From NCBI GenBank assembly GCA_019236675.1, contig JAFAIO010000019.1, positions 1 to 34,604 of the forward strand: 34,604 nucleotides of DNA, in the 5' to 3' direction. The notes under the pieces are model-generated. The model saw nothing but the letters and a program-made list of their open reading frames with translations, did not search any database and was not told where the DNA came from. The DNA is from Verrucomicrobiota bacterium (lineage in GTDB: Bacteria > Verrucomicrobiota > Verrucomicrobiia > Chthoniobacterales > JAFAMB01). Positions 25,263 to 32,540 of the stretch are shown here, in pieces; position 1 is the first letter of the stretch, and each line of letters opens with the position of its first letter. Both the position numbers and the translations under genes were made by a program.

Positions 25263-25868
25263 ATGAACCAGTGCATCTTTAGTCCGGACCGCATTTACCG
25301 GTATGTATTACGCTGCAGATGCGCGGATAGCGCCTCAGAAAATTCACCCAGCCCGATATCCGTGGGATACAATTCAGAGAGAGCGCATTATTCCAACACT
25401 CAGGCACTCCGGAAACCCGCTTGCCAGTACTCGAGGACGAGGACGACGACGAGGACGAGAACGATTACGAAGCGGATCGCGTGGATCGGCTTAAATCCCA
25501 GCAGGGCGGACGAAGACACTCTCGATCAAACCATGGCGGCAGTATGCCGTTACTCGAGAAAGTGGGGCTTCACCGAGGTGGTCATGCTGAACTTGTTCGC
25601 GTTTCGAGCGACCGATCCTCGCAACATGAAACAGGCGGCGGATCCGATCGGGCCGGACAACGACAGACATCTGCTAACGGAGGTGTCTAACGTTGACCGG
25701 GTAATGGCTTGTTGGGGCGACCACGGCAAGTTTCTAGGGCGCGATAGACAAGTCTCAGACCTGCTCGGTGTTTCGTTTCAATGTCTACTTAGAAATAGAA
25801 CCGGAGCGCCCCATCATCCCCTCTATCTAAAGCCGAGAATCAGGCCTCAGCCGTTCGGATTGGATTAA
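25263..25868 (+). CDS. DUF1643-domain protein with an apparent internal insertion
   Basis: 201 residues. The start CIFSPDRIYRYVL and the block IAWIGLNPSRADEDTLDQTM belong together in DUF1643 proteins. Further conserved parts are VVMLNLFAFRATDPRNM, VMACWGDHGKFLGRDRQV and HPLYLKP at the end. Here about 50-55 residues lie between the first two blocks. They include SRTRTTTRTRTITK, read from a GACGAG-type tandem repeat (25431-25472) that also occurs upstream of pdxY. The gene therefore seems to have received a repeat insertion in frame; the protein may be altered or inactive. The family's biochemical role is unknown. Confidence 0.8.
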   Translation: MNQCIFSPDRIYRYVLRCRCADSASENSPSPISVGYNSERAHYSNTQALRKPACQYSRTRTTTRTRTITKRIAWIGLNPSRADEDTLDQTMAAVCRYSRKWGFTEVVMLNLFAFRATDPRNMKQAADPIGPDNDRHLLTEVSNVDRVMACWGDHGKFLGRDRQVSDLLGVSFQCLLRNRTGAPHHPLYLKPRIRPQPFGLD

Positions 25869-28042: not shown

Positions 28043-28612
28043 ATGGAATATACTGCGGAGTCCACGGATACCGATACGCGGCTGGCTCAGCGGCTGCGCC
28101 AGCTCCGGATAGAACGCTCTTGGTCGCTCGAAGAGCTGGCGACAAAAAGCGGGGTCAGTCGGGCAACTTTGTCCCGGATCGAAAACAACGAAGTCAGCCC
28201 TACCGCTTCTGTACTCGGGAGGCTTTGCGCGGCCTTTGACCTGACCATGTCCAGGCTGCTGGCCTACGTGGAATCCGATCTCCCTGCCTTAGTTCCGCGA
28301 AGCGCGCAGCCTCTCTGGATCGACCCTGAAACAGGGTTTCGCCGGCGTTCGATTTCCCCGCCTTCGCCAGATTTTGAGTGTGAGCTTCTTCAATGTGAAT
28401 TGCTGGCCGGCGCTCGAATCGACTACCCCCTCCCGCCGCGGCCAGGGTTAGAGCACCATTTGTATCTAGAGTCGGGCGCGTTGGAGCTCCGTGTCGACGG
28501 ATCAACTCATCGAATATCCGAAGGCGACTGCCTCCGTTATCGGTTACATGGAGAAAGCTCATTTCGAGTACTCCATCGACGCCCGGCCCGATATTTCCTG
28601 GTCATCCGATGA
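28043..28612 (+). CDS. XRE-family regulator with cupin sensor domain
   Basis: 189 residues from ATG 28043. Residues 10-65 are an HTH_3 domain: LAQRLRQLRIERSWSLEELA, then TKSGVSRATLSRIENNEVSP. Residues 100-187 form a cupin barrel (PGLEHHLYLESGALELRVDG, then ISEGDCLRYRLHGESSFRVL). HTH-cupin proteins are usually repressors or activators that sense a small metabolite. Its stop overlaps the next gene's start (ATGA, 28609-28612), so it and the acetyltransferase are translationally coupled. It probably regulates this operon. Confidence 0.92.
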   Translation: MEYTAESTDTDTRLAQRLRQLRIERSWSLEELATKSGVSRATLSRIENNEVSPTASVLGRLCAAFDLTMSRLLAYVESDLPALVPRSAQPLWIDPETGFRRRSISPPSPDFECELLQCELLAGARIDYPLPPRPGLEHHLYLESGALELRVDGSTHRISEGDCLRYRLHGESSFRVLHRRPARYFLVIR

Positions 28613-29271
28613 AGGCAACACCCTCGAATGAACGCCGACAGGGCCGACAGCGCCGGGAACGCCGAGAGCGGGTGGCAACGCAGATTTCGAACCAAAAAAA
28701 AGCTAGACTCAGCAGCATCGAAATCTTCAGGCTCGATGGAGAAGGACTAGGACAGCATTTGGACGCCATCGCCGAAATTCTTCATGCCTGTGTTCACGAT
28801 GGCGCCAATGTCGGTTTCGTCCTTCCATTCGACCTCAATCAAGCTCGCGCCTTTTGGGCAGAAAAGATCGCGCCCGGGTTGGTTGCCAACAGCCGAATTG
28901 TACTGGTGGCGAAAGTAAACAACCAAGTGGCGGGCACAGTTCAGTTGAATCTCGATACGCCCCCGAACCAACCGCATCGGGCAGATGTCTCCAAGCTTCT
29001 GGTTCATCCGAAATATCGAAAGTTAGGTATTGGACGCGCTCTCATGGAGCAGATTGAATCTTATGCTGAGAATGACGGCCGCCGGCTCTTGACTCTGGAT
29101 ACGGCGACTGATATTGCCGAAAACCTTTATCTTTCCCTTGGATACGAGCGCGCCGGTCACATCCCTGGCTACGCGCGCGATCCTAACGAGGACCGGTTTG
29201 TTGGGACGACGATCATGTATAAGGTGCTGCCGGGCTCGCTTAGGCTCGTCCGGCCCTCTGCCTATGTTTAA
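28609..29271 (+). CDS. GNAT-family N-acetyltransferase
   Basis: 220 residues from ATG 28609, supported by the ATGA overlap with the regulator. Residues 6-22 (SNERRQGRQRRERRERV) are read from a CGCCGACAG/CGCCGGGAACG repeat, so the N-terminus seems to be an acquired basic tail; an internal GTG (28672) is an alternative start. The GNAT core spans about 60-205: RIVLVAKVNNQVAGTVQLNL, motif A VSKLLVHPKYRKLGIGRALM and LYLSLGYERAGHIPGYA. It transfers an acetyl group from acetyl-CoA to a small amine or protein. The substrate is unknown. Confidence 0.9.
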   Translation: MKATPSNERRQGRQRRERRERVATQISNQKKARLSSIEIFRLDGEGLGQHLDAIAEILHACVHDGANVGFVLPFDLNQARAFWAEKIAPGLVANSRIVLVAKVNNQVAGTVQLNLDTPPNQPHRADVSKLLVHPKYRKLGIGRALMEQIESYAENDGRRLLTLDTATDIAENLYLSLGYERAGHIPGYARDPNEDRFVGTTIMYKVLPGSLRLVRPSAYV

Positions 29272-30235
29272 AGATCATTTCTCACAATCTGCGGCTGGTT
29301 ATGCGGCTTATCGTCCGACTTATCCGATCGAATTGGTGAATTTCCTGGTTGATGCCGCCCGCCGAAATGAATTCGCGTGGGATTGCGGTTGTGGCTCCGG
29401 GCAGCTATCGACGTTGCTGGCCGAAAGGTTTGATCAGGTATACGCAACGGATGCCAGTGCTAAACAGATCGAGAATGCTGTGCATCACGCGCGAGTCCGT
29501 TATGCTTGCGCCCCGGCCGAAGCCAGTGGGCTTGACGATCAGGTTGCAGATCTGATCGTCGCCGCGCAAGCGGCTCATTGGTTTGATCTTCCGGGCTTTT
29601 ATCGGGAAGTACGCCGCGCAGGTCGTCTTAGTTCAGTCGTTGCATTGGTGTCCTACGGGATTGTCAACGTCGACGAACAATTGGACCCCATCATCGGACG
29701 ATTTTATTGGGATATAATCGGTTCCTATTGGCCGCCGGAACGCAAGCACGTCGAGGACGGTTACCGCTCACTCGATTTTCCGTTTACCGAAATCGAGGCG
29801 CCGCCGATGGCAATGAGCGCCTCGTGGACGCTTTCGGATTTTATTGGGTACGTGAACACGTGGTCAGCTGTGGCCGCCATGGAACGTGCGATCGGCCCGG
29901 AACCGCGCGAGCGATTCAGCCAGGATCTGGGCGAAGCCTGGGGCTCGGCGGAGCAGAAGCGGCTGATACGTTGGCCGCTGTCGTTGCGGGTGGGAATTAT
30001 TGAGGAGCTAGGAGAGGCGAATGGGCGAATGGGCGACTCGGCGAATGGGCGACTCGGCGAATGGGCGACTCGGCGACTCGACGACTCGACGACTCGACGA
30101 CTCGACGACTCGACGACTCGACGACTCGGCGACACGGCGACACGGCGATACGATGATGCGGCGAATGGCGATCGGAGGCGCGAAAGGAGGCGACAAGATC
30201 GGGAGATCACATTGAGCCGGCGCTTTCAGCGCTGA
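29264..30235 (+). CDS. SAM-dependent class I methyltransferase with repeat-derived C-terminal tail
   Basis: A 323-residue protein from ATG 29264, overlapping the acetyltransferase by 8 bp. FSQSAAGYAAYRPTYPIEL, then motif I (FAWDCGCGSGQLSTLLAE), YATDASAKQIENA and DLIVAAQAAHWFDLPGFYRE identify the family of small-molecule methyltransferases of the Methyltransf_11 kind. The fold should end near residue 250 (WPLSLRVGII). The remaining ~70 residues (RMGDSANGRL, RRLDDSTTRRLDDSTTRR and a basic end) are translated from a GGCGACTCG/ACGACTCG tandem array. The original stop codon seems to have been lost to repeat insertion. The substrate is unknown. Confidence 0.88.
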   Translation: MFKDHFSQSAAGYAAYRPTYPIELVNFLVDAARRNEFAWDCGCGSGQLSTLLAERFDQVYATDASAKQIENAVHHARVRYACAPAEASGLDDQVADLIVAAQAAHWFDLPGFYREVRRAGRLSSVVALVSYGIVNVDEQLDPIIGRFYWDIIGSYWPPERKHVEDGYRSLDFPFTEIEAPPMAMSASWTLSDFIGYVNTWSAVAAMERAIGPEPRERFSQDLGEAWGSAEQKRLIRWPLSLRVGIIEELGEANGRMGDSANGRLGEWATRRLDDSTTRRLDDSTTRRLGDTATRRYDDAANGDRRRERRRQDREITLSRRFQR

Positions 30236-30430
30236 TCGTCGTTTGTTACGTTACCTAGGGCTTCGTCCGGCAGTGACCGGGCTATCATGAGCCGCAGCTT
30301 CGCTGCCAGAGCGCCTCGCGCCTCCGATCGCCCATTCGCCCGTTCGCCCTTTCGCCGTATCGCCCATTCGCCGTGTCGCGGTTCGCCCTTGACATCGAGC
30401 ACGAGGACGAGCACGAGGACGAGGACGATT
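30016..30430. repeat. GCGACTCG tandem array with inverted partner and GACGAG array
   Basis: Bases 30016-30160 hold GGCGAATG, GGCGACTC and CGACGACT units in the methyltransferase's 3' end. A segment at 30162-30192 (core GCGATCGGAGGCGCGA) is inverted at about 30311-30338, followed by TTCGCCC/TTCGCCGTATCGCCC units to 30389. Bases 30397-30427 are GACGAG-type units, as inside the DUF1643 gene (25431-25472). The left array resembles the left arm at 11571-11640. Confidence 0.9.
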
Positions 30431-30439
30431 CTCAGCGCC

Positions 30440-31291
30440 TTGAACATCCTATCCATTCAATCCAGCGTCGTTTACGGGCACGTCGGAAACAGTGCTGCGG
30501 TATTCCCGCTGCAACGCCTAGGCATCGAGGTCTGGCCGATTAATACCGTTCACTTTTCTAACCACACCGGATACGGAAGTTGGGGTGGCGCGGTCCTGCC
30601 GACACCGGTAGTCGAGGACATCGTTCGCGGATTGAGCGAGCGCGGGGTCCTATCGCTATGCGACGGTTTGCTTAGCGGGTATATGGGAGACGTTTCGCTT
30701 GGGCGAGTCATCCTCGACCTGGTACAACGGGTTCGAGCCGAAGACCCGTCGGCGGCTTATTGTCTAGACCCTGTAATGGGCGACACCGATCGCGGTTTCT
30801 ACGTGCGCCCAGGAATTAGCGAGTTGATGAGAGACGATGCGCTTCCTTTAGCCACCGTTATCACCCCCAACCAATTCGAGCTGGAATTTTTGGCAGGCCG
30901 TCCAGTGGTCGATCTTGAGTCCACCATGACTGCGGTTAACCTTCTTCGCGAGCGCGGTCCGAGGGTCGTTTTGGTGACCAGTTTGTCTCGGGCTGACAGC
31001 GATTCTAACATGATTGAGATACTCGCCGCGGACGAACAATCCGCGTGCTTGATTGCTACTCCGCGGCTTCCTCTTTCGGTCAACGGAGCTGGTGACGCCA
31101 CCGCCGCGATTTTCTTTGCGCACTGGCTGATGGGTAGCCCAATAGCGGTGGCACTCGAGAAAACGGTGAACTCCGTCTTCGCTGTGCTTGCGCTTACTGC
31201 GGAGAGAAACGCCAGAGAGATCCAGCTCATCGCAGCGCAGGATCAGATCGCCAATCCGCCGGAAGGGTTCCGCGCGGTGAAGATCCGCTGA
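30440..31291 (+). CDS. pdxY: Pyridoxal kinase PdxY
   Basis: A 283-residue PfkB/ribokinase-fold kinase that phosphorylates pyridoxal to pyridoxal 5'-phosphate in the salvage pathway. SIQSSVVYGHVGNSAAVFPL, INTVHFSNHTGYGSWGG and CDGLLSGYMGD match PdxY closely. CLDPVMGDTDRGFYV, VITPNQFELEFLAG and NGAGDATAAIFFAHWL (catalytic GxGD) complete the set. Homology begins at LNILSIQSS, so TTG 30440 is the best start. The region just upstream is a tandem-repeat array, and an ATG at 30287 would add 51 repeat-encoded residues. The original start region may have been replaced. Confidence 0.94.
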   Translation: MNILSIQSSVVYGHVGNSAAVFPLQRLGIEVWPINTVHFSNHTGYGSWGGAVLPTPVVEDIVRGLSERGVLSLCDGLLSGYMGDVSLGRVILDLVQRVRAEDPSAAYCLDPVMGDTDRGFYVRPGISELMRDDALPLATVITPNQFELEFLAGRPVVDLESTMTAVNLLRERGPRVVLVTSLSRADSDSNMIEILAADEQSACLIATPRLPLSVNGAGDATAAIFFAHWLMGSPIAVALEKTVNSVFAVLALTAERNAREIQLIAAQDQIANPPEGFRAVKIR

Positions 31292-31310: not shown

Positions 31311-31471
31311 AATATCCGCAGATTACACAGATTAACGCAGATTTCGGTTTGAGAACTGACTCTGCCGCGGGTTCAAAACCAAAACAGAATTCTGCGGAGT
31401 GATGTTTATCTCACTGGCGTTCGCCGAACCTAGGCCGAAATCTGTGTTAATCTGCGTAATCTGCGGATATT
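31311..31471. repeat. 161-bp inverted-repeat element with CAGATTA-type arms
   Basis: The 37-bp arms 31311-31347 and 31435-31471 are inverted copies with two mismatches. Each contains three CAGATTA-like heptamers (AATATCCGCAGATTAC, then CAGATTAAC). It fills most of the 212-bp gap between pdxY and the SDR gene and ends 32 bp before the SDR start codon. Confidence 0.94.
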
Positions 31472-31503
31472 CATCTTCTTTCTGGATATTTCTCTCTTTC
31501 ATC

Positions 31504-32385
31504 ATGTCTGAGCAATCGAAGCGTTCAGTTGTAATTACCGGCACTTCGTCGGGCATCGGTTACGCCGTGGCCAAGCTGCTGGCAGAACGCGGCTATCAAG
31601 TATTTGGCAGCGTGCGTTCGGAGATGGACGCCGATCGCACGAGCAAGGACCTGGGCCCAAATTTCAGTCCACTGATCTTTGACGTAACGGACCAGCAATC
31701 GGTCAACATGGCAGCTGATCTGGTCCGAGAGAGACTCGGTCGGGGTCGATTGTTCACGCTGATTAATAATGCCGGTATCGAGATGGCCGGTCCGCTAGCC
31801 TATTTGCCGGTCGAACGGTTCCGCGCCCAACTTGAAGTGAACCTGATTGGTGTGCTCTCGGTCACCCAAGCATTCTTGCCGCTATTGGGCACCGAGGCTA
31901 ACCGCACCGGCAGCCCAGGCAGAATCATCAACATCAGTTCCATGCTGGGCCGGCTAGCCGTGCCTTTCGTCGGGGCCTACTGCGCCTCGAAGTTCGGACT
32001 TGAAGCTTTTTCAGATTGTCTCCGCCGCGAAATGATATTGTTCGGAATCGATGTCATTGTGGTGGAGCCAGGAGCGGTGGTGACGCCAATTTGGGAGAAA
32101 GCCGAAGGCAAAATACTCCAAGACTATCCCAACACACCGTACCAGCACTCCCTGACAAAGTTTGTCGAAACAGCGATGAAATCCGGACGAGAAGGCTTTC
32201 CGGCCCGTAAAGTAGCAGAGCTGATCGAGCGCATCCTATCAACAAAAAAACCAAAGGCCCGGTATACGTTGATCCCAAACCATTTCGTGGAATACACAAT
32301 CCCACGCCTTCTACCGGCTCGGACGCTTGACTATTTCATGGGCAAGTATCTGGGTATCGGTGGTGTCAAAGGAACCGATACGTGA
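31504..32385 (+). CDS. Short-chain dehydrogenase/reductase
   Basis: A 293-residue classical SDR with a Rossmann fold, from ATG 31504. An upstream in-frame start would translate the repeat. Cofactor motif: VVITGTSSGIGYAVAKLLAE. LINNAGIEMAGPLAYLP gives NNAG. Catalytic Ser is in INISSMLGRLAVPFVG, and YCASK gives the Tyr/Lys pair. PGAVVTPIW follows. Length and the C-terminal helices resemble SDRs acting on retinoids, steroids or other lipophilic alcohols. The specific substrate is unknown. The stop codon TGA opens the GTGATTG-type array. Confidence 0.93.
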   Translation: MSEQSKRSVVITGTSSGIGYAVAKLLAERGYQVFGSVRSEMDADRTSKDLGPNFSPLIFDVTDQQSVNMAADLVRERLGRGRLFTLINNAGIEMAGPLAYLPVERFRAQLEVNLIGVLSVTQAFLPLLGTEANRTGSPGRIINISSMLGRLAVPFVGAYCASKFGLEAFSDCLRREMILFGIDVIVVEPGAVVTPIWEKAEGKILQDYPNTPYQHSLTKFVETAMKSGREGFPARKVAELIERILSTKKPKARYTLIPNHFVEYTIPRLLPARTLDYFMGKYLGIGGVKGTDT

Positions 32386-32540
32386 TTGGTGATTAGTGAT
32401 TGGTGATCGGTAGCAGCGCGATCGAGCCAGGGACCCGTCCACTCATCAGAAATCGCCGGTGAGCCGAAGAATTATTGACACGTCGCCTACCCCACTCTGC
32501 GGGCCAATCACCAATCACCAATCACCAATCACCAATCACT
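32383..32540. repeat. GTGATTG-type terminal inverted arrays around a 92-bp core
   Basis: The left array 32383-32411 (TGATTGGTGATTAGTGATTG) is inverted as CCAATCA units at 32504-32540. The SDR stop codon is the first TGA of the left array. The right array is followed by a CTTCTCGCTTCTCACCTCTC pyrimidine-rich stretch ahead of the lipoprotein gene. Confidence 0.93.

Follow-up and report, generated by a model that had tools for sequence, protein, structure and literature searches.

Known short-repeat systems and the Verrucomicrobiota locus

In Beggiatoaceae, arrays of the heptamer TAACTGA are abundant and intergenic: in one orientation they give stops in three frames at gene ends, whereas arrays facing the opposite way become part of protein termini, e.g., those of MurG and a glycosyl hydrolase (MacGregor 2015, PMC4679880). 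Here, we describe a methyltransferase gene whose reading frame continues through an octamer array, in a contig (GenBank JAFAIO010000019.1) of an uncultured Verrucomicrobiota bacterium; the window, i.e., the whole stretch of DNA that was analysed, comprises 34,604 nt. The array is one arm of a palindromic element, and the frame read through it gives the predicted protein a C-terminal tail of 77 amino acids, 20 of them Arg. As in Beggiatoaceae, intergenic short arrays are plentiful in this organism, and they include both stop-supplying and read-through cases. The Beggiatoaceae arrays, however, have a single heptamer unit, lie mostly just 5′ of start codons and are almost always direct, whereas the genome studied here has many locus-specific units of 7–9 nt, inverted pairs and a tail made from an octamer.

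In Xanthomonas, heptamer arrays of GGGAATC lie within 50 bp of stop codons, with 70–75 convergent array pairs per genome and array lengths that differ between relatives; the repeats of Xanthomonas and Nostoc are a single G-quadruplex-type heptamer family (PMC4692102). The window likewise has two arrays of the same unit, inverted and close together (30016–30148 and 30327–30379). Their unit, GGCGACTC, is nevertheless of 8 nt and not the G-quadruplex heptamer GGGAATC, and the 50 inverted pairs of this genome draw on 30 unit families. In the part of the Xanthomonas and Nostoc report that is accessible, no long C-terminal extension is noted (PMC4692102).

Two eukaryotic and archaeal parallels concern the protein. 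Tandem repeats in archaeal Borg DNA create disordered protein regions, and the units inside open reading frames (ORFs) are all divisible by three (PMC9879509). The methyltransferase tail, too, has a predicted disordered region encoded by DNA tandem repeats, but its 8-nt unit fails the divisible-by-three rule and only the C-terminus is affected. In yeast and flies, stop-codon loss adds non-coding sequence to old genes as de novo C-termini (PMC4494051). An old gene appears to have gained non-coding sequence by stop loss here as well; the yeast and fly cases are, however, polymorphic within species and unconnected with repeat arrays, while the window tail is known from one metagenome-assembled genome (MAG). 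The repeats of Mycobacterium tuberculosis Fpg were ruled out as a precedent, as they lie upstream of the gene. The process, of which this is a clean case, is one already known elsewhere, and the methyltransferase tail combines features of the Beggiatoaceae, Xanthomonas, Borg and yeast/fly systems. An earlier sequence-only reading of this DNA, made by a model without database searches, had remarked neither on these published precedents nor on the array being one arm of an inverted pair.

The source MAG (G000; 5.87 Mb, 84.67% complete, 565 contigs) was compared with three congeners (G001, G002 and G003). Repeats were surveyed in samples of G000 (about 398 kb taken by contig number and about 229 kb picked for repeat hits), G002 (246 kb) and G003 (163 kb), and methyltransferase orthologues at 80 loci from many phyla, G002 among them.

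The methyltransferase frame runs through the octamer array

A class I, S-adenosylmethionine-dependent methyltransferase makes up residues 1–246 (Pfam Methyltransf_11, E = 1.4e-13), and the nearest solved relative is PDB 4hg2 (E = 2.6e-97, matching across the whole profile). Identity as BioC, the malonyl-acyl carrier protein methyltransferase, was rejected: at 47.3 bits, the NCBIfam equivalog cut-off of 184.95 was not reached. From the ATG at 29264 to the TGA at 30233–30235, the frame is open over 323 amino acids. The sequence-only reading had observed that it passes the array without a stop; the repeat unit, which that reading had described as lacking a stop in this frame, is stop-free in all six. 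By itself, the open frame is weak evidence, because 6.9% of simulated frames and 17.8% of frames begun at random genome positions stay open for 77 codons. The array, on the other hand, is not a product of chance, because an order-1 Markov simulation yields 1–3 arrays of period 7–9 where 100 were observed per 398 kb of G000. An uninterrupted, perfect period-8 run extends over 55 nt (30074–30128).

The same reading had counted some 70 repeat-encoded residues. The tail is indeed of that order of length, but the array proper accounts for only about 44 of its residues: the count was too high because about five leading codons and about 28 downstream codons, made of degenerate units and non-repeat palindrome (30149–30232), lie outside it. 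The features of the locus are collected in Table 1.

Table 1. Features of the methyltransferase locus and its palindromic element, in window coordinates (TRF, Tandem Repeats Finder; SAM, S-adenosylmethionine).
Feature	Position	Strand	Basis or remark
Methyltransferase core coding sequence, 246 amino acids	29264..30001	+	Class I SAM-dependent, Methyltransf_11; orthologues have common start and end ...WPLSLRVG
GAG codon 247, probable site of lost ancestral stop	30002..30004	+	Congener G001 has TAG there
Novel C-terminal tail, 77 amino acids (20 Arg), with stop TGA 30233–30235	30002..30235	+	Absent from 80 orthologues
Leftover out-of-frame TAG just 5′ of the array	30009..30011	+	Aligns with functional stop TAGGAGA of G003
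Octamer array GGCGACTC/GGCGAATG, 16.6 copies, left arm of inverted pair	30016..30148	+	TRF score 154, 89% matches
Inner flank of left arm, GGCGAATGGCGATCGGAGGCGCGA	30160..30183	+	Non-repetitive; recurs inverted in right arm (arm alignment)
Element core between arms	30184..30315	.	Short pieces repeat at few other genome sites
Right arm: inverted octamer array (TCGCCCAT) and inner flank (about 30316–30340)	30316..30379	-	TRF array rows 30327–30379
Downstream gene, pyridoxal kinase PdxY	30440..31291	+	Probable start TTG 30440, from which the product matches the NCBIfam pyridoxal kinase model at E = 1.5e-111

Probable loss of the ancestral stop codon

An ancestral stop had been expected between 29995 and 30010, and the congeners place it there. 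At this point, the window has ATT ATT GAG GAG and G001 has GTT ATT TAG GAG, the TAG of G001 aligning with the GAG at 30002. G003 ends CGGAGA TAG GAGAAGTGCGAATGGGCGA; the window counterpart is a similar CTAGGAGAGGCGAATGGGCGA, in which the TAG (30009–30011) is shifted one base out of frame. Relative to codon 247, the stops of G001, G003 and G002 stand at +0, +2 and +3, respectively. Sequence matching the tail is non-coding or missing in the relatives: the G003 stop stands beside a similar array, which occupies the matching position after the stop, and the G002 gap downstream of the methyltransferase lacks the octamer element, the kinase lying 146 bp beyond the conserved WPL codons versus 483 bp in the window. 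Over the 80 orthologues, the protein continues for 0–14 residues beyond the last aligned position, and for 25 in one case (median 3), as compared to 77 in the window; no array-free orthologue among them carries a comparably long tail, which agrees with the earlier proposal that repeats have here created new protein sequence.

Judged from these alignments, the tail very probably results from a lineage-specific stop loss adjoining an array with a stop-free unit. The stop would have been removed either by a T to G change at 30002 (TAG to GAG) or by a shift of one base, which would have moved the TAG at 30009 out of frame. In the sequence of events that we propose, a palindromic element, consisting of a short core with octamer arrays in inverted orientation on its two sides, would have been present directly 3′ of the methyltransferase gene when a single change in the window lineage removed the stop. 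The ribosome would then read the entire octamer array and stop only in the element core, at the TGA at 30233. Once the stop was lost, such read-through would be automatic, because the octamer is stop-free in every frame and, 8 not being a multiple of 3, all phases are read in turn. The outcome would be an Arg-rich, mostly disordered appendage of 77 residues that follows the final strand of a methyltransferase fold, itself intact.

Certain points weigh against this reconstruction. The tail hangs on a few consensus bases (30002–30011) and on the reading frame across the array in one metagenome assembly; the G001 methyltransferase is split across two contigs, its C-terminus being taken from C341; and the stop position varies slightly between congeners, so that the four sequences are compatible with either change. 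An assembly or consensus error would leave the real stop near 30002–30011 and make the tail an artefact. The MAG is in 565 contigs, one base (GAG to TAG) would restore the stop, and the perfect 55-nt run is difficult for short reads; but the critical bases lie upstream of that run in nearly unique sequence, and a congener that was assembled separately has other genes with array-encoded C-termini. We regard such an error as unlikely.

Structure and probable fate of the tail

An AlphaFold2 model built with 29 sequences has a complete domain up to residue 245 at a predicted local distance difference test score (pLDDT) of about 97, with the final strand at 233–245. Residues 251–297 have a pLDDT below 50 and are predicted to be disordered; a helix of moderate confidence lies near the C-terminus. 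Its presence, the Arg-rich composition and the reported selection on Borg protein repeat regions (PMC9879509) would fit a selected, functional disordered region, for instance one binding nucleic acids via the 20 arginines, as has been argued for Borg repeat proteins. We hold such a function to be very unlikely: the tail occurs in one genome only, the sequence of the unit alone accounts for the amino-acid composition, and the 8-nt unit, in contrast to all in-ORF Borg repeats, is not divisible by three, whereby a change in copy number alters the tail end.

Indeed, changing the unit number in silico gave three alternative tail endings, none of which touches the domain. The gain or loss of one unit would swap the end of the tail among these three versions, since 8 is not a multiple of 3. 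Programmed use of this, the array phase-varying the C-terminus, is a further rival reading; each unit gained or lost does switch the ending (8 mod 3 = 2) and the perfect run suggests recent expansion, but the methyltransferase domain is intact in all three phases, the endings are unrelated filler and the authors of the Xanthomonas work judged phase variation unlikely for their own repeats (PMC4692102). We consider programmed variation extremely improbable. Most likely, the tail is nearly neutral: it would be translated, and tolerated rather than useful.

Stop-bearing heptamers and stop-free octamers

The sequence-only reading had contrasted this locus with arrays that supply stop codons, and the G000 sample bears the contrast out: stop codons are present on one strand or both in 59 of 63 heptamer arrays, whereas 13 of 15 octamer arrays have none on either strand. 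Several long ORFs (226–924 amino acids before the array) terminate within heptamer arrays (L150, L153, L160, L174, L178, L219 and L039). In the window itself, a short-chain dehydrogenase gene (31399–32385) ends at the first unit of the heptamer array 32382–32411, from which it takes its TGA. The orthologue in G003 (L039:1229-2125, minus strand) likewise terminates within an array of heptamers, whose unit differs.

Six further ORFs have array-encoded ends. Two contain Pfam domains, namely CbiE and CbiJ of the cobalamin pathway in G002 (L201:501-1361 and L201:7590-9278), both with octamer-encoded C-terminal tails; the four without domains are perhaps chance ORFs. Counted from its MICC start, CbiE has 239 amino acids in G002 versus 227 in G001 (+12 residues). 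No CbiJ homologue was found in the congeners with the part of the protein that was searched. The methyltransferase therefore does not stand alone but is the longest member of a small class. After CbiE (L201:1360-1640), a long palindrome (GTCCCGAAGGGACGAAAGGACTCAGCCCGGGGTTTTAACCCC...) resembling repetitive extragenic palindromes lies between octamer arrays of different units.

Neighbouring genes and hexamer arrays

The methyltransferase gene has a GNAT acetyltransferase gene on one side and the pyridoxal kinase gene on the other. The GNAT ORF (28609–29271) has its N-terminus read from a 9-nt array (28633–28670), and its C-terminus extends about 12 residues beyond the end of the G003 orthologue, a terminal drift resembling that of the methyltransferase. 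A longer kinase ORF, from 30287, has an N-terminus made of repeat sequence; the region of the probable start at 30440, TTGAACATCC, is also present in G002. Two similar CGAGGA hexamer arrays occur in the window (25432–25464 and 30396–30428). G002, which has no octamer element at this site, retains the second of them immediately 5′ of its pyridoxal kinase gene. In the G000 sample, ACGAGG ranks among the commonest units (9 arrays).

Inverted pairing and the origin of the arrays

Within the samples of G000, G002 and G003, nearby array pairs with matching units were inverted in 71 instances and direct in one, which overlaps itself; at loci from other phyla, nine pairs were inverted and none direct. 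Arrays from different contigs match inverted in 5.7% and direct in 5.0% of comparisons, and because these match both ways about equally, the inverted bias is local. The window has a second inverted pair (32382–32411 with 32504–32539) besides that of the methyltransferase element.

The RNA fold of 29990–30400 has a free energy of -210.7 kcal/mol (z = -6.4). Rfam gave no match within the window, and a terminator scan of the gap between methyltransferase and kinase found no intrinsic terminator. The element core is not high-copy, with five short partial matches elsewhere, and so lends no support to a simple transposon copy. In the G003 gap after the methyltransferase (L010/L039), the core is a palindrome of about 250–300 bp unrelated to that of the window; at this same site, similar arms enclose different cores.

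Both arms of the window element would have formed together from a hairpin. A wider, rather doubtful extension is that short arrays in the genus and in other phyla mostly arise as the arms of palindromes, with a unit that is locus-specific yet common to both arms; this would point to hairpin-driven amplification, i.e., template switching between the arms, and not to independent slippage of single arrays, as the source of gene-end stops and of new C-termini. The near-always-inverted pairing lets comparative genomics test the origin of bacterial short repeats.

The composition of the units explains why stop-free octamer arrays lengthen proteins and stop-bearing heptamer arrays terminate them. Set against one congener whose stop persists next to an array of similar kind, and a second that lacks the element, the methyltransferase locus would document the conversion of an intergenic repeat to protein in one step.
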